Shown: in pieces, positions 30,194 to 60,335 of the stretch
How the letters are laid out: each line of letters opens with the position of its first letter
How positions within the stretch are numbered: the first letter of the stretch is position 1
Assembly: GCA_016928955.1 (NCBI GenBank)
Contig: JAFGJV010000054.1
Span: 1-60,554, forward strand
Length of the DNA: 60,554 nucleotides
DNA from: Spirochaetales bacterium
Lineage (GTDB): Bacteria > Spirochaetota > Spirochaetia > Treponematales > UBA12059
Direction of reading: 5' to 3'
Notes under the pieces: model-generated
The model's input: only the letters and a program-made list of their open reading frames with translations
Told to the model about the DNA's origin: nothing
Database searches by the model: none
Made by a program: the position numbers and the translations under genes

Positions 30194-31045
30194 TTACCCC
30201 AACAGCTGCATGACCGACTGGGTCCTGGTGTTGGCCTGGGCGAGCATGGCTCCACCGGCCTGAGACAGGATGGTGTTCTTTACGTAGTTCACCATCTCGT
30301 TGGCCATGTCGGTGTCGCGGATGCGGCTCTCTGCGGCCTGCAGGTTCTCAGCGGCAATGGCGACGCCCTTGGCGGCCATCTCAAAGCGGTTCTGGTAGGC
30401 GCCAAGGTCGGCGCGCTGCTGTGAAACCGTCCGGAGGGCGGCGTCCAGCATGCCGATGGCCCTATTGGCGGCCTCGGGATCCTCGATGGAGATGGTCTCC
30501 TCAGTACCCTGGATCTTCTCAAGACCAAGGGCCTGGGCGGTCATGGTGCCGATGTAAATGCGCTCGTTCTGGTCCATGTTGGCGCCGACCTGCAGCTGCA
30601 TGACCTGGGTGCCGCCGTTCCTTGAGAAACGGCCGGTGAGCAGGTTCATGCCATTGAACTGCGCGTGGCTGGCGATGCGGTTGATCTCGTCGACCAGCTG
30701 GGAAACCTCAACCTGGATCTGCATGCGGTCCTCGGCGGTGTAAATGCCGTTGGCGGACTGCACGGACAGCTCGCGGAGCCTGTGCAGGATATCCTGCGAC
30801 TCCTGGAGGTACCCTTCGGTGGTCTGGATGAAGGACACGCCGTTTTCGATGTTCTTGGTGGCCTGGTTCAGGCCGCGGATCTGGCTGCGGAGCTTTTCCG
30901 AAACGGCCAGGCCGGAAGCGTCGTCGCCGGCGCGGTTGATGCGCATGCCGGAACTCAGCTTCTCCATGTTCTTGTTGAGCTCGGACTGGGTGACGCCCAG
31001 GGACCTCGATGCGTACATCGCGCTCATGTTGTGGTTGATGATCAT
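30194..31045 (-). CDS. flaB: Flagellin FlaB (first of two)
   Basis: 283 residues, the size of spirochaete core flagellins. The conserved D0/D1 ends are present: [18 protein letters not shown] and [22 protein letters not shown] at the N-terminus, and [14 protein letters not shown] with a final VMQLLG at the C-terminus. The short central region and absence of a signal peptide are typical. AAGGAGGG precedes the ATG. The paralogue at 31422 is highly similar, so both form the periplasmic filament core. Confidence 0.96.
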
Positions 31046-31421: not shown

Positions 31422-32282
31422 TTACTGGAGCAGCTGCAAGACCGCGGCCGTCTTCTGGTTGGCCTGGGCCAGCATGGCGTTGGACGCCTGCATGAGGATC
31501 TGGTTCTTGGAGTACTCGACCATCTCGTGGGCCATGTCCGCGTCGCGGATGCGGCTCTCGGCGGCCTGCATGTTCTCCGCGCCGATGTCGATGCCCTTGA
31601 TGGCGTGTTCGAGGCGGTTCTGGTAGGCGCCAAGGTCGGCGCGCTGCTTGGAAACCTTCTTCAGGGCTGCGTCCAGGACACCGATGGACCTGTTGGCGCC
31701 GTCGGGGGAGGACAGGGACAGGATTTCGTCGCTCGAAACCTGCTTGACGCCCAGACCCTTGGCGGTCATGGTGCCGATGAACACCTGCTCGCGCTGGTCC
31801 ATGTTGGCGCCGATGTGGAACCACATCGAGCCGGTCACGATGTTCTCGCCGTCGGCGCGGGCAAAGCGGCCGGTCAGGAGGTTCATGCCGTTGAACTGGG
31901 CATGGCTGGCTATGCGGTCGATTTCGTCGATCAGCTGGGACACCTCGACCTGGATCTGCATGCGGTCCTCGGCGGAATAGATGCCGTTGGACGCCTGGAC
32001 GGACAGCTCGCGGAGTCTCTGGATGATGTCCTGGGTTTCCTGGAGATAGCCTTCAGTCGTCTGGATGAACGATATGCCGTTCAGGCCGTTCTTGGACGCC
32101 TGGTTGAGGCCGCGGATCTGGCTGCGGAGCTTTTCCGACACGGCCAGGCCGGACGCGTCGTCCCCGGCGCGGTTGATGCGCATGCCGGAGCTGAGCTTTT
32201 CCATGTTCTTGTCAACGTTCAGGTTGTTGATCCCGAGCTGGCGGTTGGCGTACATGGCGCTGAGATTGTGGTTGATGATCAT
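31422..32282 (-). CDS. flaB: Flagellin FlaB (second of two)
   Basis: 286 residues with the same conserved ends as its neighbour ([56 protein letters not shown]). AAGGAGG precedes the ATG. A sigma-28-type promoter lies about 220 bases upstream. Tandem flaB copies are usual in spirochaetes, where several core flagellins are mixed. Confidence 0.96.
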
Positions 32283-45838: not shown

Positions 45839-46015
45839 CTACAACCGGTGGTACTCCCACAGGTCTCTCGTCGGCCCTGCTGGCCGACGGTTCGGTTCCG
45901 CTTGAGCGGAACCAAGCCGGGATTGAACCTGAAATGCGAGACCACAAGCCAGCGTACAGCCGCCTTTTCCAATCAACTACAACCGGTGGTACTCCCACAG
46001 GTCTCGCATTTCAGG
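45839..46015. repeat. Duplicated 3' tail of nrdJ with internal palindromes
   Basis: The 29 bases at 45977-46005, which encode the final residues of NrdJ, recur exactly at 45839-45867, again followed on the minus strand by a stop codon. Between them are two hairpins (CGTCGGCC/GGCCGACG at 45869-45889; GGTTCCGCT/AGCGGAACC at 45894-45913). There is also an inverted copy of 16 bases of the gene tail (45928-45943 against 46000-46015). Confidence 0.75.
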
Positions 46016-49000
46016 CAGGTTCCGTTGCGCACCAGGGTCAGGTGGCCGCATATCGGGCAGGGGTCGCCCTCGTAGCCCTTCATGCGTGCGCTACGCACCT
46101 CGTCGCGGGCTGTTTGGGCCGTCTGGGCGGGGGCGCGCTTGGCTGCCGCGGCCGCCTGGTCCTCGGCGTGCCGTTCCGCGGCCATGCGCGCCTTGCCGTT
46201 CTGCGTGGCCGTGGCTATGAGGTCCTCCGGTTTGACCTGGCCAAGGTCATACCGGTCCTGGTAGCTGATGGCCAGGTCCCTGAACACGTAGTCCAGGACG
46301 CTGGTGGCCATCTTGATGTACTCATGGCCGCGGACCATGCCGTTGGGCTCGAAGCGGCTGAACGTGAACGCGTCGACATACTCCTCAAGCGGGACGCCGT
46401 ACTGCAGGCCAAGGGACACGGCTATGGCAAACGAGTTGAGCAGGCTCCTGAAGGCCGCCCCCTCCTTGTGCATATCCAGGAAAATTTCCCCGATGCGGCC
46501 GTCGTCGTATTCTCCGGTGCGGATGAAGACGGAATGGCCGCCGATCTTCGCCTTTTGGGTGTAGCCCATCCTGCGGTTGGGCAGGGGACGCCGTACGCTG
46601 GTAGGCGCCTTGTCCGACGGTTGGGGGGTAGGCTGGGATTCAGCCTGCACGGCCAGAATGCTCTCAGCCAGCGCGTCGTCCATGGCCGCGATGGAACTCA
46701 GGGGCTGGGACAGCTTGGATCCGTCGCGGTACAGGGCTATGGACTTGAGCATGCTCTGCCATGCCAGCATGTACGCGCCCTTGACGTCTTCCACCGTGGC
46801 CGAGTTGGGCATGTTGATGGTTTTCGAGATTGCCCCGGACACAAAGGGCTGGGTGGCGGCCATCATGGCTATGTGCGCTTTCCACTGGATGGAGCGGGTG
46901 GCGTTGCGGCCTGAGGGCGTGGCCGTGTCGAACACCGCGTAATGGGCCTTCTTGAGGTGCGGCGCGCCTTCTATGCCCATGGTGCCGCATGCCCAGCCCT
47001 CGGCCGCCGCGATATCCTGGATGGAGAAGCCAAGAAAGCGGAGTATGTCAAAGCCTGGCTCGGAGCGCACGGCCGCCGTCGCGCCCACGGCGTCGCAGGC
47101 TTCAGCGCCCAGGGTAAAGGGATTGAAGGCCGAATCCAGGCTCATGGCGTTGCGAACGGCCGCGTCCGCCTTGAGAATGGCCTCCTCGGGCAGGCCCTTC
47201 TCGCGCAGGGCTGCCAGCGGCACCCCGGGCGCCCCTTCCAGGGTCCCCGTGCCAACCATGTACGTGCGGATGTCTTCTATCGCCTCGTCGGAATATCCCA
47301 GGGCGCGCAGGGCAGGCAGCACCGAATTGTTGACAATCTTGAAATAGCCGCCGCCGGCCAGCTTCTTGAATTTGACCAGGGCAAAATCGGGCTCTATGCC
47401 GGTAGTGTCGCAGTCCATGAGCAGGCCTATGGTGCCCGTGGGCGCTATGGCCGTGGTCTGGGCGTTGCGGTAGCCGTGTTTTTCTCCCAGGGCGACAGCC
47501 TGGTCCCAGGCGTCGCGGGCGGCGGCCGCCAGCTCGGCCGGGGCTTTGCCGTCGGCTAGTCCCTGGGGTTTGACCGACAGCCCCTCGTACTCCGACTGGT
47601 CGGCGTTCCAGGCGGCCTTCCTGTGATTGCGCATGACCCGCAGCATGGACTCGGCGTTGGGACCGTAGGCGGGAAAGACGCCAAAGGCCTGGGCCATGCG
47701 CGCCGACTGGGCATAGGCCTCGCCGGTGGTGATGGCCGTCAGGGCGGCGGCCGTGGCGCGTCCCTCGTCAGAGTCGTAGGGCAGGCCCATGAGCATGAGG
47801 AGGGTGCCCAGGTTCGCGTAGCCCAAGCCCAGGGTGCGGTAGTCGTAGCTCTTGCGCGCTATCTCCTTGGACGGGAACTGGGCCATGACCACGGATACCT
47901 CAAGCACCGTGGTCCACACGCGTATGGCGTGGCGGTATGCGCTGTCGTCAAAACGCCGCGAGGCTTCGTCATAGAAGGTGGCAAGGTTGAGCGACGCCAG
48001 GTTGCACGCGGTGTCGTCCAGGAACATGTACTCCGAGCAGGGATTTGAGCCCCGGATCTCGCCGCCTGCCGGGCAGGTGTGCCAGTCGTTCACGGTGGTG
48101 TGGAACTGGAGGCCGGGGTCGGCGCATTGCCAGGCCGCGCGGGCTATCTTGTCCCACACGGCGCGGGCCTTGACCGTTTTCATGGTCTTGCCGCCCCGCC
48201 TCATGGTCAGGTGCCAGTCTTTGTTCTTGACCACGGCTTCCATAAAGGTGTCGGCCACTCGCACCGAGTTGTTGGACGCCTGCCCGGCCACGGTGGCGTA
48301 CGCTTCGCCCTCCCAGTTGGTGTCGAACACGGCGCCGTCCACGTCGGGTTCGCCCTCGGCCGCCCTCCTGAGGGTCTGGTATACGTAGGAACCCGGCACG
48401 CCAGCGTCCAGGGCCTGCTTGGCCGCCCGCTGCAAGGCCGGGTTCTTGTCGAACGAAAGCCTGTCCCCGGCCGGCACCGACGCGTCGGCGGCGGCGTCCC
48501 TGACCGCCACCGTGAAACGCCGTATGGCCTGGGACCCGGCGACCATGCTGGCTACCTTGTGCTCTTCCCCCGTTTTCCAGTCTATGAAGGTCTCTATGTC
48601 CGGGTGGTCCGCGTCCAGGATCACCATCTTTGCGGCACGGCGGGTGGTTCCGCCAGACTTGATGGCGGCGGCGGAGCGGTCGGCTATCTTGAGAAAGGAC
48701 AGAAGGCCGCTGGAAAATCCTCCGCCGGACAGGGGCTCGTTGAGGGCGCGGATCTTGGAAAAGTTGGAGCCGGTGCCCGAGCCGTACTTGAACAGGCGGG
48801 CCTCGCGCTCCACCAGGTCCATGATGCCGCCGTCGTTCACCAGGTCGTCCTGTACATCCAGGATGAAACAGGCGTGGGGCTGGGGGCGCTCGTAGGCGCT
48901 GGTGGACGCTACCACCGTGTCGGTCTCGGGATCGACGTAATAGTGGCCCTGGGCCGGCCCTTCCAGGCCATACACGGCGTGGAGCCCGGTGTTGAACCAC

Positions 49001-49437
49001 TGGGGGCTGTTGGGGGCCGCCATCTGGTGGGCGAGCATGTAGCAAAGCTCGTCGTAAAAAGCCTTCTCGTCGGCCTCAGTTTCGAAGTACCCGGCTTTTT
49101 TGCCCCACAGGAGCCAGGTGTAGGCCAGGCGGTGGAACACCTGGCGCGCGTCGTGCTCGCTCCCCTGCTTGGGAGACGGGCCGGCCATTGCCTGCTGTTT
49201 TTCCGGTACCCAGGCGCGCCACGCGTCGGCCTTGTCGTCGGGGACGCCTGCCTTGCGGAAGTACTTCTGGGCCATGATGTCAGTGGCTATCTGGCTCCAG
49301 GTGGACGGAACCACGACGCCGTCCATGCGGAAAGCCACGCGACCATCGGTGTTGCGTATTTCCGACACCCGTTTTTCCCAGGTGATGCCTTCATAGGGGC
49401 CTTTGCCGGCCTTGGTGAAACGACGTTCTATCTTCAT
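45973..49437 (-). CDS. nrdJ: Adenosylcobalamin-dependent (class II) ribonucleotide reductase
   Basis: 1154 residues. Contains the active-site [21 protein letters not shown] region, the phosphate-binding [16 protein letters not shown] loop and a C-terminal zinc-ribbon-like cysteine tail (CPICG ... [13 protein letters not shown]) that re-reduces the enzyme. GGAGG lies before the ATG. Makes dNTPs with or without oxygen, requiring vitamin B12. No B12 riboswitch is evident in the 147-base divergent gap. The gene's 3' end is partly duplicated just downstream. Confidence 0.96.
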
Positions 49438-49546: not shown

Positions 49547-49574
49547 TAAGACAAAGCGGCGCCACGGCCGATAC
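49547..49574 (+). promoter_or_regulatory. Sigma-28-like promoter before the spiro-SPASM operon
   Basis: TAAG (49547-49550), 16 bases, GCCGATAC (49567-49574), one base off the usual GCCGATAA. The transcript would begin around 49581, a few bases before the ATG at 49585. Confidence 0.55.
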
Positions 49575-49584
49575 TATGGAGGAT

Positions 49585-51114
49585 ATGGCTACCATCGTCA
49601 TCGTCAACGCCACCCATTGTACCAGGCACGCTTTTGTGCCCTTCGCGGGGTCGGACAGCGCCTTCCGGCGCGTGCTGGCCTTTGCCCGGACGCTCGCGTC
49701 TCCTAACGCGGTCCATGTGGTGGCCCTGAAGGGCTTTTCGGAGGCCGTGCCGGACGCCGGCCTGAGCCTGGTCGATACGGGCGACATGCGCGCGGTGCTC
49801 ATGGCGGCGCTCGCTGCCTGCCCTGACCCGGACCAGCTTCACGAACTGGTGTACGTGCATGGCGACGCTCCCTTCCTGGACGCCGAGCTTAGCGCCACCC
49901 TGTTGGACACCCACAGGCGCTACCGGGCGGAATACACCTACGCTGACGGCTATCCGGCCGGCTTTGCCCCGGAAATCCTGTCGAGCAGGGCTCTTCCCAA
50001 CCTGGTGGAACTGGCGTCAAGGAACGACATAGCGGCGGAACGAGACGGCTTGTTTGCCCTGATCCAGAAGGACATCAACTCATACGACATAGAGACAGTC
50101 CTGTCGCCGGTCGATCTCCGCTCCTACCGTTTTTCTCCCGTATGCGACACCAGGCGTAACATGGATGCAGCCCTGGCTTTGGCCGCACTTGGACCGGTCA
50201 GCGCTGCCGGCGTGGTGCGCGAGCTGCCTGAGCGCCCGGAGTTGCTACGCACCCTGCCAGCCTTCCTGTGGGTCCAGGTTACGGAAGGCTGTCCGCAAGC
50301 CTGTTCCTACTGCCCCTATCCTTTGATGGTGGGCGACCCCCGTGGGCGGAACGGCTTCATGCCGCTTGAGCGCTTCGAGAGCATCATGGCCCAGGCGGAG
50401 GATCTGTGCGACGACCTGGTGGTCGACCTGTCCCTGTGGGGCGAGCCGGCCCTGCACCCTGACTTTGCCGGCCTTGCCTCGGCGGTGCTGGCTAGAAAGC
50501 GCTTTACCCTGATCGTGGAGACGTCCGGCCTTGGCTGGGCGCCCGGGTTGCCCGAGTCCGTGGCCAGGGCTGGCAGGGAGCGCGTTCACTGGATCGTGTC
50601 ATTGGATGACGACGACGATGCCGGCTATCGGGCGCTACGGGGCGAGGGGCGGGACGAAGCCGCTGCTTTTGTCCAGCGGATGGCCGCGTCCTGGCCCAAG
50701 CAGACCCACGTCCAGGCCGTGCGCATGGCCGATACCGAAGAGAGGCTGGAACCGTTTTACAGGCACTGGAAGGGCGTGCTGGACGGTGTGATCATCCAGA
50801 AATACGATAGTTTTGCCGCTTGTCTTCCAAAGCGCTCGGTAGCCGACCTTGAGCCGCTTGAGCGCATACCCTGCCGCCACCTTGCCCGCGACCTGGCCGT
50901 ACTGCTGGACGGATCGGTTCCGCCGTGCAAGCACGCCCTGGCGCGGCAGGCGGACGGCAAGCTGGCCTATGCCGCCACCATGGGCAACGCGTTCGCGCCG
51001 GGCGGGCTCAAGGCCGCCTGGGACGCCATGGGCGCCTGGTACGCCGACCACGCGGCGGGTAGACTGCCTCCACCCTGCGAGCACTGCGATGAATACCATA
51101 CCGTTAACGCTTGA
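49585..51114 (+). CDS. Radical SAM/SPASM protein of the spirochaete 'spiro-SPASM' type
   Basis: 509 residues from ATG 49585 (an ATG at 49576 would add MED). Residues 1-200 resemble a nucleotide-sugar transferase-like fold (VYVHGDAPFLDAELSATLL). The radical SAM core starts at Cys236-x3-Cys240-x2-Cys243 (EGCPQACSYCPYP). C-terminal cysteines (IPCRH, VPPCKHA, PPCEHCDEYH) form a SPASM-type auxiliary cluster site. First gene of a tightly overlapping operon ending next to flaA. The reaction is unknown; SPASM proteins often modify peptides. Confidence 0.88.
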   Translation: MATIVIVNATHCTRHAFVPFAGSDSAFRRVLAFARTLASPNAVHVVALKGFSEAVPDAGLSLVDTGDMRAVLMAALAACPDPDQLHELVYVHGDAPFLDAELSATLLDTHRRYRAEYTYADGYPAGFAPEILSSRALPNLVELASRNDIAAERDGLFALIQKDINSYDIETVLSPVDLRSYRFSPVCDTRRNMDAALALAALGPVSAAGVVRELPERPELLRTLPAFLWVQVTEGCPQACSYCPYPLMVGDPRGRNGFMPLERFESIMAQAEDLCDDLVVDLSLWGEPALHPDFAGLASAVLARKRFTLIVETSGLGWAPGLPESVARAGRERVHWIVSLDDDDDAGYRALRGEGRDEAAAFVQRMAASWPKQTHVQAVRMADTEERLEPFYRHWKGVLDGVIIQKYDSFAACLPKRSVADLEPLERIPCRHLARDLAVLLDGSVPPCKHALARQADGKLAYAATMGNAFAPGGLKAAWDAMGAWYADHAAGRLPPPCEHCDEYHTVNA

Positions 51115-52042
51115 CGACCGGAAAACCAGCTACGCGGTGGTCGGGGGGCGGGGCTGTCCTGGCAACTTCCCCGTGTCCGTGGTCATCCTGAACCGAGGTC
51201 CGCGTATATACCGGGCCGCCTTGGTACAGGACATCCTGGATGCGGGCTTCGACTCGCTGATATCCGTGGAAACGGGGCGGCCGTCTCCAGAGCTGGAAGG
51301 GGTGGCGACGCGCTTTCCCCAGTTGCGTTTTATACTCCTGCGCGACGACGTGTCTGTAGGCGAGCAGATTAACATAGCCATGCGGGAAGCATGCTCGCCG
51401 TACGTCTTTGTGATCTGGAACGACATGCGCCTGGCGTCCAGTGCCCTGTCCGCCCGATTTTTTGATAGAGTGGCCGAACTGGACGCGGCCTGCCTGGTGC
51501 CCCAGCTCAGCTCGGCGGACGGAAGCGTCGTGCCATCCGTCATGCATCCGGCCCTGGCTGGCCAGGCTCTCAGGTGCGTGCCCCTGCCGCCGGCCAAGGA
51601 CGGGGAGGGGAGCCTCTTCCCCTACGACTATTGCGGCATATACTCGCGGGAGCGTTTTGTGCTGTCCGGCGGCTTTGACTGGACCATAAGCCAAGCGTAC
51701 TGGCAGCTCATGGATTTCGGTATGAGGCTGTGGCTGTGGGGCGAGCGGGTATCCCACGCCCAAGCCTTGAAAATCCGCTACCAGGGCAGCCCTCCGGACA
51801 CCGACCTGACGCCGGACGCGTCGTATGCCCGCTTCTGGCTCAAAAACCTGGCTCCCCGGCACCGTGGCGACTCGGCCTACCTGCCTGGCAGGCGCTTTTT
51901 CCGCTTTCTCCTGAGTTCCCGCCTGGGTCCCGTGGAGGCCAGGAACGAGTTCCTGGCGGCCAGGACCTGGGTAAAGGCAAACGAATACAGGTTCAAGCAG
52001 GACGCCGCGCGCCTTGTGAACCTGTGGGATCCCCTCCCATGA
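51089..52042 (+). CDS. Glycosyltransferase-like protein
   Basis: 317 residues, overlapping the previous gene by 26 bases. The N-terminal half follows the GT-A (family 2) pattern: FPVSVVILNRGPRIYRAALVQ, then LRDDVSVGEQINIAM and YVFVIWNDMRLA in the place of the DxD region. The usual DxD is replaced by NDM, so activity is uncertain. The upstream in-frame extension is a shadow of the SPASM gene. Its stop overlaps the next start (ATGA). Confidence 0.72.
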   Translation: MNTIPLTLDDRKTSYAVVGGRGCPGNFPVSVVILNRGPRIYRAALVQDILDAGFDSLISVETGRPSPELEGVATRFPQLRFILLRDDVSVGEQINIAMREACSPYVFVIWNDMRLASSALSARFFDRVAELDAACLVPQLSSADGSVVPSVMHPALAGQALRCVPLPPAKDGEGSLFPYDYCGIYSRERFVLSGGFDWTISQAYWQLMDFGMRLWLWGERVSHAQALKIRYQGSPPDTDLTPDASYARFWLKNLAPRHRGDSAYLPGRRFFRFLLSSRLGPVEARNEFLAARTWVKANEYRFKQDAARLVNLWDPLP

Positions 52043-52722
52043 ACCCCGCCAAACGTATCGTCCTCATCGTACAGATGCGCCTGGATTCCACGCGACTGCC
52101 GGGCAAGGCCCTCTTACCCCTGGCCGGTGGATGCATGGCCCAGGCTGTCATGCGGCGGCTCTCAAGCGTGCGAGCCGATCGGCGGGTGCTTGCCACGGAC
52201 GCCGACGGGGCGGCCGCCCTTGGTGCCATGGCGGCCAGCCAGGGGTTTGCCGTTTTTGAGGGACCCAAGGACGATGTGCTCAGGCGCTTTGCCCTGGCCG
52301 CATCCAGGCACGAAGCCGCGTACGTCGTCAGGGCCACCGGCGACAATCCCCTGGTGTCCTACGAGCTGGCCAACGCGCTTGTGGAGCACGGCATGCAAAC
52401 GGGTGCCGATTACGCGGGATACACGGGCATGCCCACGGGCATGGGCGTGGAATTCATCCGGGCGGAAGCCCTGCTCACGGCGGACGAGGAGGCTGACAGC
52501 GCCTATGACCGCGAGCATGTATGCCCGTACCTGTACACCCATCCCGAGCGCTTTAGCGTGTTCCGGCCGCCCTGCCCCGATGCATGGCGCCTGCCGGCAG
52601 CCAGCGTGACCGTGGACACGGCCTTGGACTACCAGCGCGTCACCCGAATCTTCGAGGAACTTGGCCGGGATCCGTCAGACGCGCGGCTCATGGACTGGCT
52701 CAGGGCGGAGGCAGGGTCGTGA
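52039..52722 (+). CDS. SpsF-like cytidylyltransferase
   Basis: 227 residues. IVLIVQMRLDSTRLPGKALLPLAG is the nucleotide-binding signature of the acylneuraminate cytidylyltransferase/SpsF family, followed by VRATGDNPLVSYELA. It probably activates a sugar acid as a CMP derivative. Both ends overlap neighbours by 4 bases. Confidence 0.9.
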   Translation: MNPAKRIVLIVQMRLDSTRLPGKALLPLAGGCMAQAVMRRLSSVRADRRVLATDADGAAALGAMAASQGFAVFEGPKDDVLRRFALAASRHEAAYVVRATGDNPLVSYELANALVEHGMQTGADYAGYTGMPTGMGVEFIRAEALLTADEEADSAYDREHVCPYLYTHPERFSVFRPPCPDAWRLPAASVTVDTALDYQRVTRIFEELGRDPSDARLMDWLRAEAGS

Positions 52723-54506
52723 AATCCATACTGCTGGTACCCTCGGTGCGGCGCGGCAACGGTTCGGGCCATTTGGTACGCTGTTTTTCCCTGGCCAAGG
52801 CCCTGGGCAGGGGTGCTGCCGTTTTTCTCTCCGAAAACCCGCGGGCGGACGAACGCGGCTCAGCCGAGCTTCAGCTTGCCTACCATAACGATTTTGAGGC
52901 GATCCGCGTGATTACCGCCCTGCGCGACGAGCGTTGGGACCTGATCGTCCTGGACCGATTTACCAGCACGTATGACGAGTACCTGTTCTGGTCCACCTAC
53001 GGCCCCGTGGCGGCTATAGACGAGGGGGGTGGGGCCAGGGCATACGCGGAATACCTGATCGACGCTCTTCCCCACCTGCCGTCAGGAACCACGGGCTGGG
53101 ACGGGGCTAACGTGTCGTCCCTGGGCTTTCTTGCCCTACCGGAAGCCAGAAGGACGGCTCCCGGGCGCATTTCGTCGGTGCTCGTATCCTTTGGCGGCGA
53201 GGATCCCGCCGGCCTCACTGAAGCGTTTCTGGCCGCCGCCGTGGACTCAGGCCGCCTGAGTCCGGGGAGCGTCACGGTTGTGTGCGGCGCACTGGCCCAA
53301 CAATCAGGCGCGCGCCGGGACGGCATCACCTACCTGGGACCCATCCAGGATCTCAGGGAAAAGCTTTCGAGCTACGACCTGGTGGTTACCCAGTTTGGCC
53401 TGACGGCCTTCGAGGCCGCCTGGGCGGGTTGTGCCGTCCTCCTGCTCAATCCAAGCGCCCTGCACCAGCGCCTGTCCGCGGCGGCCGGTTTTGTCAGCCT
53501 GGGCGTCCGGAAGCCGTCTTTTGCGCGCTTGGACGCGGCTCTGGGCGACGCGCGGGCCCTGGCCCAAGCCAGCGCCGCTGCCGCCCCGCCTGAGCGTCTG
53601 GATCTGGCCGCGCGCCTTGCGTCGCTCGAACCCAGGCACCACGGGCCGTGCCCAGCCTGCGGGAGCCGGACGCTTAGGGCCGTGTACCGCGACCAAGACC
53701 GCAGTTACCGGCGCTGTGCCGACTGCGGCCTTGTGTCCATGGCGTATTTTGGCCCGCGCAGGAACCCCTATGACAACTCGGCGTACTTTTTTGAGGATTA
53801 CAAAAAGCAGTACGGCCGCACCTACCTGGAAGACCTGCCGTCCATACGGGCTTTGGCGGCCCGTCGATTGGATGTCATGGAACGCTATCTGCCGGCTGGC
53901 CGTGATGGCGCCGTGGTTCTGGACGTAGGCTGCGCATACGGCGCCTTCCTTATGGAAGCCCATGCCAGGGGCTGGCATCCCGTGGGCACGGACCTGTCCA
54001 CGGACGCCGTTGCCTATGTCCGCGACACGCTGCGACTGCCGGCCTTTGTGTCCGATTTTTCAGGCGAACAAGCTACCGGGCTGTATCCGGACACGCTGGA
54101 CGCCTTGACCCTCTGGTACGTGATAGAGCATTTTGACGACCTGGGCAGGGTGCTCGCTCGGGCGCGAGGACTGCTCAGGCCAGGCGGGGTGCTTGCCCTG
54201 TCCACGCCGTCGGCGGCCGGCGTGTCGGCGCGGCTCCGCCCCGAGTCGTTCTGGTCGTCGTCGCCGGCAGACCACTTTACCGTGTGGGATCCACGGACAA
54301 CGGCCGGATTACTCAGGCGCTGGGGCTTCAAAATGGTCGCCGTACGGATAACCGGACATCACCCGGAACGTTTCCCCGGCGTGCCGAACAAGCCGCGCTC
54401 GCTCCGCTACCGGCTGGCCATGGCCGCGTCCAGGCTGTTCGGCCTGGGCGACACCTTTGAGTGCTACGCACTGCGCGTCGACGACGGGCACAAGGACGGG
54501 ACATGA
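52719..54506 (+). CDS. SpsG-like glycosyl hydrolase/transferase fused to a methyltransferase
   Basis: 595 residues, GTG start overlapping the previous stop (GTGA). Residues 1-320 are SpsG/PseG-like (RRGNGSGHLVRCFSLAKAL; SVLVSFGGEDPAGL; VVTQFGLTAFEAAWAG), a GT-B-fold nucleotide-sugar hydrolase. From about 350 a zinc ribbon (CPACGSRTL ... CADCGLV) leads into a class I methyltransferase (VVLDVGCAYGAFLMEA; LTLWYVIEHFDDL). The zinc ribbon plus methyltransferase arrangement also appears alone at 16260. A natural fusion of two sugar-modifying steps. Confidence 0.88.
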   Translation: MKSILLVPSVRRGNGSGHLVRCFSLAKALGRGAAVFLSENPRADERGSAELQLAYHNDFEAIRVITALRDERWDLIVLDRFTSTYDEYLFWSTYGPVAAIDEGGGARAYAEYLIDALPHLPSGTTGWDGANVSSLGFLALPEARRTAPGRISSVLVSFGGEDPAGLTEAFLAAAVDSGRLSPGSVTVVCGALAQQSGARRDGITYLGPIQDLREKLSSYDLVVTQFGLTAFEAAWAGCAVLLLNPSALHQRLSAAAGFVSLGVRKPSFARLDAALGDARALAQASAAAAPPERLDLAARLASLEPRHHGPCPACGSRTLRAVYRDQDRSYRRCADCGLVSMAYFGPRRNPYDNSAYFFEDYKKQYGRTYLEDLPSIRALAARRLDVMERYLPAGRDGAVVLDVGCAYGAFLMEAHARGWHPVGTDLSTDAVAYVRDTLRLPAFVSDFSGEQATGLYPDTLDALTLWYVIEHFDDLGRVLARARGLLRPGGVLALSTPSAAGVSARLRPESFWSSSPADHFTVWDPRTTAGLLRRWGFKMVAVRITGHHPERFPGVPNKPRSLRYRLAMAASRLFGLGDTFECYALRVDDGHKDGT

Positions 54507-56086
54507 CATCGATATTCATTCTGGGAGCCGGCGTAATGCAGGGGCCGGCCATACAGGCGGCCAGGAACAAAGGCTACCACGTTGCCGTGGCAGATGGCGA
54601 CCCGAACGCGATCCATGCCCGGGACGCCGACGTTTTTTTCAACGTTGACCTCAAGGACAGGGAAGGGCTGGCAGCCGCTGCCGCAAGCGTGCCGAACCTG
54701 CGCGGTGTGTTTACCGCAGGAACGGACTTTTCAGCGTCCGTGGCCTGGGTGGCCGAGCGGCTGGGCCTGCCAAGCATATCGTATGAAACGGCCCTAGACG
54801 CGTCGGACAAGGCCCGGATGCGGGCCAGGCTGGAAGCAGCCGGCGTACCGGTGCCAGGCCACGCCGTGGGCTCCAAGGGCGACGATCCCGAGATCCTGGC
54901 AACCGGCTCCTCCGGAAGAACGCTGTCGTACCCCGTGGTCGTCAAACCCGTGGACAATATGGGAGCCCGCGGCTGTAGGCTTGCCCGGGACAGGCACGAG
55001 CTGGCGCATGCATGGACGGACGCCCTGGCGCACTCGCGCTCGGGCAGGGCCATTGTGGAAGAATACCTGGACGGCCCGGAATTCAGCGTGGACGCATTGG
55101 TCCATGGCGGCAACATCGTTATCCGGGGTCTGGCAGACAGGCATGTGTATTTTGCGCCGTACTTTGTCGAGCTGGGACACACCATGCCCAGCGCCTACGG
55201 AGCTGACGTACAGGCGGAGGTCCTGGCCGTTTTCCAGGCGGCCGTACGCGCCCTTGGCATTACCACGGGGGCGGCCAAAGGCGATATCAAGTACACCCGC
55301 AGGGGTGCCTTCGTGGGTGAGATAGCCGCCCGGCTGTCCGGCGGCTTCATGTCCGGCTGGACCTATCCCTACGCAAGCGGCGTTGACCCGGCGGCTGAGG
55401 CCATAGACCTGGCCTGCGGCGTGACGCCGGCCTTCCAGAGCTCGACGCGGGACTGGGTGTCGGCCGAGCGCGCCTGGATATCCATACCGGGCACCGTGGC
55501 CGAGGTACGGATGCTGGACGCGGCCAGGCGCCTTCCCTACGTCAAGGACGTGTTCCCACGGCTGTCCCGCGGTGACCGTGCCGTGTTTCCCTCAAACAAC
55601 GTCCAGAAAGCCGGCAATGTCATCAGCCAGGCTCCGGATCGCGCCAGCGCCGAACAGGCGGCCGAGCGCGGGGCCAGAGCCGTGCTGATACGCCTGGAAC
55701 CTGGTGACCCGGACACCCTGGCCTTTTTGGACGGAGCCATGGACATACGCTCAGATTCCGGCCAGCTGTGGCCGCCTCCGGCCTACCAGCCATCGGCCAT
55801 GGCGCTGGCCTCAGCGGACAAGCTTCCGGATCTGGTGAGGAATGGCGGGGAGGGGACCACCGTGTCGATCGCGCCGCTCCGTGGGCTGGACGGCGACACG
55901 TCAACGGACTGGCTCGGCCGTACCCTGCCGGAAACTCTGGACGCCGTCAGGGAGCTGACCGGGGCCAGGGTGGGCGACCATGGCGATCTGGTGCTCGGTC
56001 GTAGATTCTGGAAAGCCTTGTTCCGGGGCGGCTACCAGGCCGGGGCCTGGGTGGTGGATAGCGCTCGGCGGGGAGGGGATCGATGA
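54503..56086 (+). CDS. ATP-grasp ligase
   Basis: 527 residues. N-terminal Rossmann-like segment (IFILGAGVMQGPAIQAARNKGY), central ATP-grasp (YPVVVKPVDNMGARGCRLA; IVEEYLDGPEFSVDALV; FVGEIAARLSGGFMSG) and a C-terminal extension of about 150 residues. Related to PurK/carbamoyl-phosphate synthase-type carboxylate-amine ligases. It probably joins an amino acid or amine to a carboxylate made in this pathway. Overlaps both neighbours by 4 bases. Confidence 0.9.
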   Translation: MTSIFILGAGVMQGPAIQAARNKGYHVAVADGDPNAIHARDADVFFNVDLKDREGLAAAAASVPNLRGVFTAGTDFSASVAWVAERLGLPSISYETALDASDKARMRARLEAAGVPVPGHAVGSKGDDPEILATGSSGRTLSYPVVVKPVDNMGARGCRLARDRHELAHAWTDALAHSRSGRAIVEEYLDGPEFSVDALVHGGNIVIRGLADRHVYFAPYFVELGHTMPSAYGADVQAEVLAVFQAAVRALGITTGAAKGDIKYTRRGAFVGEIAARLSGGFMSGWTYPYASGVDPAAEAIDLACGVTPAFQSSTRDWVSAERAWISIPGTVAEVRMLDAARRLPYVKDVFPRLSRGDRAVFPSNNVQKAGNVISQAPDRASAEQAAERGARAVLIRLEPGDPDTLAFLDGAMDIRSDSGQLWPPPAYQPSAMALASADKLPDLVRNGGEGTTVSIAPLRGLDGDTSTDWLGRTLPETLDAVRELTGARVGDHGDLVLGRRFWKALFRGGYQAGAWVVDSARRGGDR

Positions 56087-57123
56087 TTTCTCGCCTTCTG
56101 GCCATACTTCTGGCCGTGGCGGCCGGTTGGGGCTCCGCCTTTGCCGGAGCCCAGGGCGGGTCCGTTGACCTGGCTGTCAAGGCAACTGAATGGAAGGCGA
56201 GCTTTGCCTTCGATCCGGTCACGGGCACGGGGCATGTGCTCAGGGGCCAGGATCTGGTACGCTTCCGAGTGGGCACCGGAGCGTTGATGATGGGCAACGG
56301 CGCCCTGGTGGCCAGCGATGCTCCGGAGTGGACTGGTTCGAGCGTGAAGGTAAGCCCCGCCGTCGTGGAAGCGATCCAGGCCTGGTTCGATACAATCGAC
56401 GAGGAGCGGGCTTCCCGTTTTTCGGTGGCCGCCATCCTGATTGACCCTGGCCACGGCGGCCGGGATCCTGGGGCAATAGGCGAGCACGGATCGGGTGGGG
56501 CCCGCCTGCGGATAGCCGAGAAGGACATCGTGCTCAGCGTGGCAACGGATCTGTACGCCAGGCTGAAAGCCAGGTGGCCGGACAAGACCATCATGATTAC
56601 CCGCGCGGGCGACAGCTACCCGAGCCTGGACGAACGCGTCGCCATGGCCAACCAAGTGGATCTGGCCCTGAACCAGGCCATCATATACATATCGATACAC
56701 GCAAACGCGTCGTTCAACAAAAAAGCGTCCGGCTACGAGGTGTGGTACCTGAATCCGGAATACCGGCGCACCGTGGTCGACCAGAAAAAGGCCGGGGACG
56801 TGGACGAGGACGTACTGCCCATCCTGAACGCCATGCTCGAGGAAGAGTACACCACAGAAAGCGTGTTCCTGGCAAAATCCATCCTGGAAGGCCTTGGCCT
56901 GGCCGTTGGGACGGACACGGCAAGCAGGGGCATGCGGGCAGAGGAGTGGTTCGTGGTAAGGAACGCCAAGATGCCATCCGTGCTGGTGGAGCTCGGATTC
57001 GTGACGAACGAGAAGGAAGCCCGCCTGTTGGCCGACCCTGGCTACTTGCGGAAGCTCGCGGACGGCATCTATAATGGAATAACGTCGTTCGTCGATTATT
57101 TTGAGACTCGGAAAGGTCCGTAA
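56083..57123 (+). CDS. N-acetylmuramoyl-L-alanine amidase (Amidase_3)
   Basis: 346 residues with a signal peptide (first ~24 residues, LLAILLAVAAGWGSAFAGA), so periplasmic. The zinc amidase motifs are VAAILIDPGHGGRDPGAIGE (first His ligand), IISISIHANAS-like YISIHANAS and VLVELGFVTNEKEA. It cuts the peptide from peptidoglycan, useful for periplasmic flagella or cell separation. Starts in the stop of the ATP-grasp gene. Confidence 0.93.
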   Translation: MISRLLAILLAVAAGWGSAFAGAQGGSVDLAVKATEWKASFAFDPVTGTGHVLRGQDLVRFRVGTGALMMGNGALVASDAPEWTGSSVKVSPAVVEAIQAWFDTIDEERASRFSVAAILIDPGHGGRDPGAIGEHGSGGARLRIAEKDIVLSVATDLYARLKARWPDKTIMITRAGDSYPSLDERVAMANQVDLALNQAIIYISIHANASFNKKASGYEVWYLNPEYRRTVVDQKKAGDVDEDVLPILNAMLEEEYTTESVFLAKSILEGLGLAVGTDTASRGMRAEEWFVVRNAKMPSVLVELGFVTNEKEARLLADPGYLRKLADGIYNGITSFVDYFETRKGP

Positions 57124-57129
57124 GCCATC

Positions 57130-57708
57130 GTGAAGCACAGCGCATCCGACCTGTTCTCAGCGTGCAGGAAGTACCTGGACGCATTCCTTTTGCCCAAAAT
57201 CCTGTGGCCGTCCCTTCTGGCCGTTCTGCTTGCCATTGCCCTGGTCACCGTACTGGCCGGCGGGCTGGGCAGGCCAGCCACCCTGTGGTTCCCCAAGGCC
57301 CGGGGTCAGGGGGTGGGGGCCGAACTCCGCTACCTGCCCGTTCGGGGCGATGTGGAACTGGGCGTGCGAGACCTGGTGGACGAACTGGTGCTCGGCCCCA
57401 TGGACGAGGACCACGCTCCCCTCTGCGAGCCGGGAAGCGACGTATCGGCCGTGTTGGCCCGGGGCAAGACCCTGTATGTTGACCTGTCGTCTGACGTGCT
57501 GTTCGGCAGGAAGGCGTCCACGGGAATATGGTCCGAGGGCCAGGCCGAACCAGCCCTTATCCTCGAGCTTGTCCGCAAGACCGTCTCATGGAACTACCCC
57601 GGCAGGAAGCTGGTATTGACCATAGGAGGCAAGGAAGCGCTGACGCGGACCGCCGAGCCTGAAAAAACCGCGCCTGATACCGGTGCGAAAATAGAACAAA
57701 ATAATTGA
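57130..57708 (+). CDS. GerMN domain protein
   Basis: 192 residues, GTG start. One N-terminal membrane helix (LWPSLLAVLLAIALVTVLAG) and an extracytoplasmic GerMN domain (GDVELGVRDLVDELVLGPM; TLYVDLSSDVLF; ELVRKTVSWNYPGRKLVLTI). GerMN domains are often found with amidases and bind or organise at peptidoglycan. Follows the amidase by 6 bases. Confidence 0.85.
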   Translation: MKHSASDLFSACRKYLDAFLLPKILWPSLLAVLLAIALVTVLAGGLGRPATLWFPKARGQGVGAELRYLPVRGDVELGVRDLVDELVLGPMDEDHAPLCEPGSDVSAVLARGKTLYVDLSSDVLFGRKASTGIWSEGQAEPALILELVRKTVSWNYPGRKLVLTIGGKEALTRTAEPEKTAPDTGAKIEQNN

Positions 57709-57910: not shown

Positions 57911-58999
57911 ATGAGAAGGCCGATTTTCGTGATCGCCGTGGCCCTGATGATTCTGGGCGCCGTCTCCGCATTCGCAGACGAAGCCGTCGTCATCGATTTC
58001 TCTCTCCTGACGGCGGACATCATCGACGATCCGATGAACCCCGGAACCATGACGCAGAACCGGGCTACCATGATGGATTTCTCCACCGTGGCCGGTGCCA
58101 GCTATACCCCGGAGCAGAAGAAGCAGATGGCCATATCGCTGGCCATCGTCAACTGGGATGTCGTGCTCGCCTCATCGTCGCGCACCAACGACAACCAGTC
58201 GCTCTCCTACACCAAGGAAGCCACGGTTGACGCCGAGGCCAAAAAGTATGCCGGCCAGACCGTCATGGGCATCCGCGTCCGCTTCCCCCTGGAACCTTTC
58301 AATTCCTGGGCGCGGATAGAGCCGCCGTTCGAGGTCCCCGCCTTTGAGCCCGCGGCCACCGTGGGTGACGACGGCGTGATCACCGAGGACCCCACCAAGG
58401 CGTCGCTCAGCGCTAACAACACCAGGCTGAGCCGCTTCGAGGGCAGCTACAACGCCGAGTCCAAGGTCACCACCGCGTTCGGCGTGGTCAAGAACGTGGG
58501 CGTTGTCAAATCGGTGGCCGTCAACGTGAAGGGACTTAATTTCCCGCACGGCATGTCGGTGATCTTCAAGGACAACGACGGCAACGAGAAGGTCATGTTC
58601 CTTGGCTACCTGAACTTTGACGGCTGGCGCGAGCTGCGCTGGGACAACCCCCAGTACATCACCGACGTCCGCAACCGCGAGCTCAGGATTTTCCCCCTGT
58701 ATCCCAAGTCCACCCCCTATGTGAAGCTGGCCGGCTTCCTCGTGACCCGCGACGCGGCGCATGAGGGCGGAGACTTCATCGCGTACATCAAGGACGTCAA
58801 GATCCTATACGACAAGGCCGTGCTCGAGCCCGTCAAGGACATTGACGACGAGGCAGTGTGGGGCATCGTTGGCCAGAAGGAAGAGGAGCGCAAGCGTCTT
58901 GAGAGCCTCCGCTTCGGCGCCAACCAGGTCCTGCGCTACATCGAGCGCATGAAGCAGGAGCAGAAGACCGAGTTCACCGGTACGGAAGCTACCGAGTAA
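57911..58999 (+). CDS. flaA: Flagellar filament outer layer (sheath) protein FlaA
   Basis: 362 residues. A cleavable signal peptide (VIAVALMILGAVSAFADE) exports it to the periplasm, as for spirochaete FlaA, which coats the FlaB core. Typical segments are VMGIRVRFPLEPFNSWARI, VKNVGVVKSVAVNVKGLNFPHG and FDGWRELRWDNPQYI. AAGGAG precedes the ATG. Own sigma-70 promoter and terminator make it a strongly expressed single gene. Confidence 0.95.
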   Translation: MRRPIFVIAVALMILGAVSAFADEAVVIDFSLLTADIIDDPMNPGTMTQNRATMMDFSTVAGASYTPEQKKQMAISLAIVNWDVVLASSSRTNDNQSLSYTKEATVDAEAKKYAGQTVMGIRVRFPLEPFNSWARIEPPFEVPAFEPAATVGDDGVITEDPTKASLSANNTRLSRFEGSYNAESKVTTAFGVVKNVGVVKSVAVNVKGLNFPHGMSVIFKDNDGNEKVMFLGYLNFDGWRELRWDNPQYITDVRNRELRIFPLYPKSTPYVKLAGFLVTRDAAHEGGDFIAYIKDVKILYDKAVLEPVKDIDDEAVWGIVGQKEEERKRLESLRFGANQVLRYIERMKQEQKTEFTGTEATE

Positions 59000-59090: not shown

Positions 59091-60335
59091 ATGGAGTCAG
59101 CGGAGACCATCCCGAGCCGGTCCGAGCTCGAAGCCGCCTACAGGGCATCCTATGTCGGCATCGAGCGGATCCTCGGGCAAATGCTGTCGCGCATCAAGGC
59201 GCTGGTAGAGGCAGTCGGACTCTTTCCCGCGTACAAGCACCGGGTAAAATCCTTCAATAGCTATTTTTCAAAACGGGTCAAATTCATGCGCGACGCAAAG
59301 GCCCAGGGTCGGGATCCTCTGCCCATCACGGACGTGCTTGCGGTCCGCATTATATGCCCGTTCATAGGCGACCTGGCGCGCGTCGAGGAAGCGCTCCTAG
59401 ACGGCTTTACGGTTACCGAGGTGGAGCGAAAAGGGGCTGAAACATCCTTCAAGGAGTTCGGCTACCAGTCCACACATCTGCTGCTAAAAATACCAGAGGA
59501 ACTTATCGGGAGTACCGGCTTTCTCAATCCGCCTGTATGCGAGGTGCAAATCAGGACCATATTGCAGGACGCCTGGGCGGAGGTGGAACACGAGCTGGTA
59601 TACAAAGCGGATTTCACGCCCTTTGACGACCCCATGCGTCGCAAGCTGGCAGCCCTGAACGCAACGCTGACGCTGTCCGACATGCTGTTCCAGGAAATCC
59701 GCGACTACCAGCACCAGCTGAACAACGAGCTTGCCAAACGACGCGTCGCCTTCTTCAAAAAGGTTGAGGACGCAATAGACGGGGACCTGTACGCGGGGCT
59801 CAAGGCCAAGGCGAGGGAGGGCGACGACCGGCGCGCCGACTCCGGTTGGCTTGGCCCGTGGAAATCCCAGGACGACCTTTTGCTTGAGGCGCTGAATGCG
59901 CACAACCGCTCAGACTATGTCCGCGCCATAGACATTTACTCGCACATACTGGCCATGAACCCCAAGGCGGAGATCCGCGCCATCATCCACAAGCACCGCG
60001 GTATGGCCTATTTCGCTGAAAGCCGTTACGACGAGGCTGCGGAAGATTTTTCCGATACCCTGACGCTGGACGCGGCGTGCTACAAGGCGGCATATTACCG
60101 CGGGGTCGTATCCAGCGTCCGCCAGAACTACGCGGCTGCGATAGATGATTTCAACGCGGCCCTGGCCATACATCCCTACCACTTCTACTCGACATACCGG
60201 AGAGCCCAGGCCTTCTACCACATTGGAGACTATCCAAAAGCCCTTGCAGACTGCGAGGTGGCGCTGGAACTCGAGCCGGACAACGAAAACGTAAAAATGC
60301 TCAAAACCATGATACTTGCCCAGCTCAAGATGTAA
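59091..60335 (+). CDS. RelA/SpoT-domain (p)ppGpp synthetase with TPR repeats
   Basis: 414 residues. Residues 30-220 form a RelA/SpoT synthetase domain: ATP-binding HRVKSFNSYFSKRVK, ITDVLAVRIICPF, FGYQSTHLLL and CEVQIRTILQDAWAEVEHEL keep the key residues. There is no hydrolase HD domain. Residues 260-410 are three to four tetratricopeptide repeats (AIDIYSHILAMNP; YDEAAEDFSDTLTL; YPKALADCEVALELEPDN). It probably makes alarmones, with the TPRs sensing a partner. Starts without a ribosome site. Confidence 0.9.
   Translation: MESAETIPSRSELEAAYRASYVGIERILGQMLSRIKALVEAVGLFPAYKHRVKSFNSYFSKRVKFMRDAKAQGRDPLPITDVLAVRIICPFIGDLARVEEALLDGFTVTEVERKGAETSFKEFGYQSTHLLLKIPEELIGSTGFLNPPVCEVQIRTILQDAWAEVEHELVYKADFTPFDDPMRRKLAALNATLTLSDMLFQEIRDYQHQLNNELAKRRVAFFKKVEDAIDGDLYAGLKAKAREGDDRRADSGWLGPWKSQDDLLLEALNAHNRSDYVRAIDIYSHILAMNPKAEIRAIIHKHRGMAYFAESRYDEAAEDFSDTLTLDAACYKAAYYRGVVSSVRQNYAAAIDDFNAALAIHPYHFYSTYRRAQAFYHIGDYPKALADCEVALELEPDNENVKMLKTMILAQLKM

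Follow-up and report, generated by a model that had tools for sequence, protein, structure and literature searches.

A 60,554-nucleotide stretch of DNA from a Spirochaetales bacterium (assembly GCA_016928955.1, contig JAFGJV010000054.1), referred to here as the window, carries a run of overlapping biosynthetic genes that ends at flaA, the gene of the flagellar sheath protein. A preliminary description of the window had proposed an operon from a spiro-SPASM radical S-adenosylmethionine (SAM) gene to a GerMN gene, and direct reading of the sequence together with family scans confirmed its genes, overlaps and families. As interpreted from sequence, the five overlapping genes would activate and decorate a nonulosonic acid, a nine-carbon sugar resembling sialic acid, within a pathway whose end is O-glycosylation of the flagellin FlaB; this reading of pathway and target is given a probability of about 0.8.

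Genes of the cluster and their order

All eight genes from spiro-SPASM to flaA lie on the forward strand and are free of internal stops, and the five biosynthetic genes overlap one another by 4-26 nt. The first encodes the spiro-SPASM protein (49576-51114), with a possible alternative start at ATG 49585 that homologues prefer. A 26 nt overlap leads into the gene of a glycosyltransferase-like (GT-like) protein with a predicted GT-A fold (51089-52042), followed through an ATGA overlap by SpsF (52039-52722), a predicted cytidine monophosphate (CMP)-nonulosonate synthetase. SpsF matches PF02348 (CTP_transf_3 domain) at 100 bits and carries STRLPGK, an intact SxRLPGK motif that agrees with the required SxRxPGK pattern. 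Its best solved-structure match is a Leptospira cytidylyltransferase, its weaker sequence matches are KdsB enzymes, and its activity on nonulosonic acid is predicted. A GTG start within a GTGA overlap opens the next gene (52719-54506), a fusion in which family scans recognise a PseG-like uridine diphosphate (UDP)-sugar hydrolase domain (SpsG), a Zn ribbon and a SAM-dependent methyltransferase (Methyltransf_23). Against the PseG model TIGR03590 the SpsG domain scores 37.6 bits with a cut-off of 153.6, and is thus PseG-like and not classed as PseG. The fifth gene, again with an ATGA overlap, encodes an ATP-grasp ligase of the L-amino-acid-ligase type (54503-56086), which has a LAL_C2 domain, L-amino acid ligase BL00235 (3vot) as its closest solved structure, and a predicted role as an amide-forming acyl ligase.

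An N-acetylmuramoyl-L-alanine amidase (Amidase_3; 56083-57123) starts inside the ATP-grasp stop codon (ATGA), a GerMN-domain membrane protein (57130-57708; PF10646 match slightly below cut-off) follows after 6 nt, and flaA (57911-58999; FlaA family, 252 bits) after a further 202 nt. The operon had also been credited with a sigma-28-like promoter, for which no support was found: the best matches have three mismatches, about 0.3 of which are expected per 150 bp, in a scan that is itself weak, as the window's flaB genes (the positive control) score no better.

A comparison of gene order around spiro-SPASM homologues, as the preliminary description had suggested, found the linkage conserved across the class Spirochaetia rather than absent. 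The complete eight-gene order occurs in loci of spirochaete metagenome-assembled genomes (L003, L006, L011 and L012) and in those of genomes G063, G157, G091, G116, G006, G130 and G142, while G096 has the same order with no amidase match. Because the same order recurs in so many genomes, the arrangement is more than chance. SpsF, SpsG and the methyltransferase form a single open reading frame in all five Treponemataceae loci read, and SpsF and SpsG are fused in three Leptospira-like loci. An apparent SpsG-methyltransferase-ATP-grasp fusion in L012 was rejected, as it reflects a run of N. Outside the class, the loci read hold either spiro-SPASM by itself or spiro-SPASM together with SpsF, some of the latter also with SpsG.

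The T. pallidum-like genome G056 (1.14 Mb) keeps spiro-SPASM, the GT-like gene and a fused SpsF-SpsG-methyltransferase together, with amidase-GerMN-flaA far from these glycan genes and the ATP-grasp gene at yet another place. The amidase-GerMN-flaA block is therefore separable: these genes adjoin the cluster in the window, as first described, but flaA is best seen as a conserved neighbour, and the amidase and GerMN genes as a neighbouring block, with the amidase not a glycan enzyme.

The ATP-grasp ligase of four genomes from outside the class carries a fused flavin mononucleotide (FMN) alpha-hydroxyacid dehydrogenase, as judged by Pfam in L133 and L134 and, in G003 and G141, by genome matches that fall inside the ligase reading frames. 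These ligases (L133:4416-6659, L134:5173-7341, L135 and L136) are 720-780 aa long, with the dehydrogenase at the C-terminus. A search for a free-standing FMN alpha-hydroxyacid dehydrogenase restricted to the cluster-bearing Spirochaetia gave no such gene, the matches there being mostly weak and unspecific.

Spiro-SPASM and the glycosyltransferase-like protein

The window's spiro-SPASM protein is a clear, full-length member of NCBIfam TIGR04321 (449 bits against a cut-off of 250, residues 7-512), a family that is here tied to flagellin glycosylation and to repeated loss of the radical SAM motif. In its predicted model (predicted local distance difference test score, pLDDT, 94), the N-terminal domain resembles a Leptospira cytidylyltransferase (6oew), and the radical SAM/SPASM part resembles SuiB, anSME and BtrN. 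The SxRxPGK motif is found in 0/62 of these SpsF-like, cytidylyltransferase-fold N-terminal domains. The radical SAM motif CxxxCxxC is intact in the window protein (CPQACSYC) and, counting it, in 19 of 51 distinct homologues. It is lost in the others, including those of the T. pallidum-like genome, the Treponema genomes of genus g3 and a Brachyspira-like genus (g21). The four SPASM cysteines are retained in 49 of the 51, the exceptions being one truncated and one substituted sequence. On a tree that contains some long branches, the motif requires at least three changes on strongly supported branches, or about ten losses if it was never regained.

Because CxxxCxxC is lost while the SPASM cysteines are kept, radical chemistry does not seem to be required for the pathway in the motif-less lineages and, judged by these motifs, is not the general role of spiro-SPASM. 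The earlier assignment to the radical SAM/SPASM enzymes holds as a family match with an intact motif in the window, but a radical step is doubtful. A structural role near SpsF is suggested with low confidence. A literature search returned nothing on point for spiro-SPASM, for TP0562 or for an ATP-grasp enzyme with spirochaete flagellin.

Family scans found no match for the GT-like protein. Its AlphaFold model (pLDDT 88) has a GT-A fold nearest to the polypeptide N-acetylgalactosamine (GalNAc)-transferases of family GT27 (Z about 20 over 260 residues, against 16 for the next group). The catalytic motifs of GT27 are DxH and WGGE. Neither is conserved in the GT-like alignment as read by eye, which has an incompletely conserved WND and YWQxLDFGFR instead, so the protein shares a GT27-like scaffold and is not classed as GT27. 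The gene is present at spiro-SPASM loci of class Spirochaetia and absent from those read outside the class. It was considered as the sole flagellin transferase and rejected, given that absence and the presence of Maf-type proteins; any role in the pathway is assigned with low confidence.

Distribution among genomes and the probable flagellin target

Among 148 genomes of class Spirochaetia, flagellin is encoded in 117 and lacking in 31. With true spiro-SPASM defined by E < 1e-20, the gene is found in 100/117 flagellin genomes and 0/31 others, so that all 100 spiro-SPASM genomes are flagellated. Eleven of the 17 flagellated genomes without it belong to one family with genomes of 1.0-1.8 Mb and Borrelia-type FlaB. 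The other six are mostly draft assemblies, and 5/6 retain a strong NeuB. Strong NeuB occurs in 104/106 flagellated genomes other than the Borrelia-like ones, which have it in 0/11, and in 2/31 aflagellate genomes. Within family f8, genus g129 has both flagellin and spiro-SPASM and genus g13 has neither. The counts are not phylogenetically independent, as they go back to several loss events and a single Borrelia contrast. Nearly every flagellated spirochaete has the cluster, the exception being Lyme-type Borrelia. The two aflagellate genomes with strong NeuB (G201 and G247, family f51) lack spiro-SPASM, and their NeuB probably makes nonulosonic acid for another purpose.

The picture was similar in a panel of 38 selected genomes (23 cluster-bearing, 5 Borrelia-like and 10 aflagellate). 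Weak paralogues aside, the ATP-grasp orthologue is present in 23/23, 0/5 and 0/10 of these groups, respectively. Maf-type proteins (PF01973) occur in all 23 cluster-bearing genomes and in 0/15 others, mostly at 3-5 places per genome, with four in the window's own. A strong PseC-like protein is found in 23/23 cluster-bearing genomes and also in some aflagellate ones.

The preliminary description had tied a set for sugar activation, methylation and ligation to the periplasmic flagellum, which stands, and had named peptidoglycan as another possible target. FlaB, rather than FlaA or peptidoglycan, is the likely target because Maf-type glycosyltransferases accompany the cluster and FlaB serines covary with it. 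In known systems, Maf-type proteins are flagellin-specific (PMC13317340). In T. denticola, FlaB bears a 450.2 Da glycan (PMC9481697) at serines in VEVSQL and DRIAS motifs; B. burgdorferi FlaB has other residues in place of these serines (PMC7431986). Apart from Asn-flanked spacing variation in one sequence, both sites are serine in 14/14 aligned cluster-bearing sequences, two of which are the window's own FlaBs. In Borrelia-type FlaB the sites hold Glu and Asp in 8/8 aligned sequences. The window's flaB genes, on the reverse strand (30194-31039 and 31422-32276), encode predicted substrates with the VEVSQL and RIAS serines. FlaA is probably not itself glycosylated, as the title of Wyss 1998 (cited in PMC13144727) also suggests.

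The predicted pathway and its alternatives

Further genes that would complete the pathway lie elsewhere. The window's genome encodes a NeuB-family synthase (G000:C1; 178 bits against a cut-off of 22.1) whose closest solved structure is B. subtilis SpsE. PseB-like and PseC-like genes are adjacent both there and in the T. pallidum-like genome. Although no product could be named at first, the co-occurrence of NeuB, PseB-like, PseC-like and Maf genes with the cluster points to a product class, a CMP-activated nonulosonic acid.

A conserved trio of overlapping or adjacent genes for a PseB-like dehydratase, a PseC-like aminotransferase and a large subunit resembling molybdopterin xanthine/aldehyde oxidases was also observed (L139:8337-13004 in G000:C50, L140, L146, L147 and L148), including in the T. 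pallidum-like genome. The oxidase-like subunit might make the acid for the ATP-grasp ligase, or might be a relic. At two NeuB loci (L095:9386-13178, T. pallidum-like, and L096:6859-10376, genus g3 Treponema), NeuB is followed by a weakly DnaJ-like protein of 137 aa and then a protein of 650-680 aa, which in the T. pallidum-like genome has no Pfam match.

Known pathways proceed through a dehydratase, an aminotransferase, N-acylation, UDP removal, NeuB condensation, CMP activation and Maf transfer (PMC7439481, PMC13317340). By analogy, the PseB-like dehydratase and PseC-like aminotransferase would produce a UDP-4-amino-dideoxy sugar, to whose amine the ATP-grasp ligase would couple a sugar-derived carboxylic acid, replacing the PseH acetyltransferase. 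SpsG would then strip UDP, the NeuB/SpsE-type synthase would condense the product with phosphoenolpyruvate, and SpsF would form the CMP sugar, which Maf proteins would move onto Ser/Thr residues of FlaB in the cytoplasm, ahead of export. An O-methyl group would come from the methyltransferase. Spiro-SPASM would be an obligate partner, possibly of SpsF, with radical chemistry that may be dispensable in many lineages. Gene content, linkage, co-occurrence with flagellin, NeuB and Maf, the covarying FlaB sites and the motif loss are direct observations; the reaction order, the acyl substrate and what spiro-SPASM and the GT-like protein do are inferred.

Acylation by the ATP-grasp enzyme is proposed because no PseH scores above cut-off anywhere in the panel while the cluster-bearing genomes always have an ATP-grasp of the amide-forming type; its role as the pathway's acyl ligase is nearly an even call. 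The FMN alpha-hydroxyacid dehydrogenase fused to it in four genomes suggests a hydroxy or keto acid as its carboxylic substrate. More tentatively, spiro-SPASM could be a former radical SAM enzyme that many lineages have reused as a non-radical Fe-S scaffold on which the CMP sugar is made or presented, jointly with a pathway independent of coenzyme A (CoA) in which the ATP-grasp enzyme amidates the amino sugar with an O-methylated 3-deoxy hydroxy acid.

The T. denticola FlaB glycan of Kurniyati 2017 (cited in PMC9481697) is reportedly a sugar of pseudaminic type that bears a single acetyl and an N-linked 2-methoxy-4,5,6-trihydroxyhexanoyl group. Taken as a nonulosonate with one N-acetyl and a 2-methoxy-4,5,6-trihydroxyhexanoyl amide, it has a computed residue mass of 450.185 Da, and an ATP-grasp ligase with a methyltransferase would suit the methoxy-acyl group. 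The spirochaete enzyme set also fits such a nonulosonate, both methylated and acylated. The literature searched held no set of biosynthetic genes for a spirochaete flagellin glycan, which did not include the 2017 T. denticola paper.

On this reading the system belongs to an ordinary class, glycosylation of flagellin with nonulosonic acid, but takes an unusual form that is specific to the phylum. The B. subtilis sps pathway for legionaminic acid (SpsM-C-D-G-E-F; PMC7439481) shares SpsG, SpsF, an SpsC/PseC-like aminotransferase and an SpsE-matching NeuB. However, the spirochaete cluster lacks an SpsD-type acetyltransferase, adds ATP-grasp, a fused methyltransferase, spiro-SPASM and the GT-like protein, and apparently modifies flagellin rather than the spore crust. 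With the pseudaminic (Pse) and legionaminic (Leg) acid systems of Campylobacter, Helicobacter and Clostridium (PseB-C-H-G-I-F and Maf; PMC13317340) it shares the route from UDP-sugar through nonulosonate and CMP-nonulosonate to Maf and flagellin. In contrast, spirochaetes have no PseH above cut-off, enzymes below curated cut-offs, genes spread over several loci and an acylation step predicted to run through an ATP-grasp ligase rather than depend on CoA. Relative to L-amino acid ligases, the spirochaete enzyme is predicted to use an amino sugar as acceptor and a sugar acid as donor, and has an extra C-terminal extension or the FMN dehydrogenase fusion.

Several points weigh against the proposed pathway. 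All functions are assigned from homology. In the window's genome PseC (338/423.5 bits), PseI (178/340), PseB (168/408) and PseH (25/93) all fall below curated cut-offs, which places it outside the canonical Pse pathway. As PseB, PseC, PseI and PseG matches are below cut-off, sequence does not settle whether the sugar is Pse, Leg or another one. PseH-like acetyltransferases do occur in the genus g3 Treponema genomes, at 66-69 bits, below the 93-bit cut-off. Co-occurrence is partly due to shared ancestry, with Borrelia a single evolutionary contrast. In the saprophyte L. biflexa, nonulosonic acid was undetectable (PMC3438082), although its FlaB1 shows glycan-like densities; in Leptospira FlaB1 these putative glycans lie at the core-sheath interface (PMC13144727).

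The cluster could instead supply a different part of the envelope (a surface glycolipid, lipoproteins or a periplasmic polymer) with a nonulosonic acid or an acidic sugar related to it, and its flagellar link would then be indirect. Leptospira nonulosonic acids have been reported on surface lipoproteins (PMC3438082), and the two aflagellate genomes with strong NeuB indicate that a Pse-like cluster is not necessarily flagellar. This is nonetheless unlikely, given that spiro-SPASM is missing from all 31 genomes without flagellin, that Maf-type proteins, flagellin-specific in known systems, follow the cluster without exception in the panel, and that the cluster is linked to flaA. Less probable still is a sugar-peptide or peptidoglycan modification, in which the ATP-grasp enzyme would ligate an amino acid to a muropeptide and the amidase would remodel the wall for the flagellum. 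The L-amino-acid-ligase type of the enzyme and the amidase overlap would suit such a role, but the separate locations of these genes in the T. pallidum-like genome, the alpha-hydroxyacid dehydrogenase fusions and the lack of ATP-grasp in flagellated Borrelia-like genomes all argue against it. The KdsB matches of SpsF could point to a 3-deoxy-D-manno-octulosonic acid (KDO)/lipopolysaccharide-type route with SpsF as KdsB and a lipid-linked sugar as product. However, none of the class Spirochaetia panel members, nor the genome of the window or the T. pallidum-like one, has a KDO8P synthase above cut-off, NeuB is nearly always present instead, and the best solved match of SpsF lies with the Leptospira enzyme; this role, the least credible of the three, was rejected.

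If FlaB glycosylation is indeed its function, the cluster predicts which step yields the odd acyl group of the glycan and offers an explanation for why Borrelia-type FlaB lacks the glycosylated serines. Spirochaete flagella are internal, and in T. denticola the FlaB glycan is essential for filament assembly (PMC9481697). A named gene list, retained even in a 1.14 Mb genome, makes the question of its synthesis testable gene by gene.

Two neighbours frame the locus within the window. A class II (B12-dependent) ribonucleotide reductase with a TSCPD domain lies divergent to the operon (45973-49437), and a RelA/SpoT-domain protein with C-terminal tetratricopeptide (TPR) repeats directly follows flaA (59091-60335).

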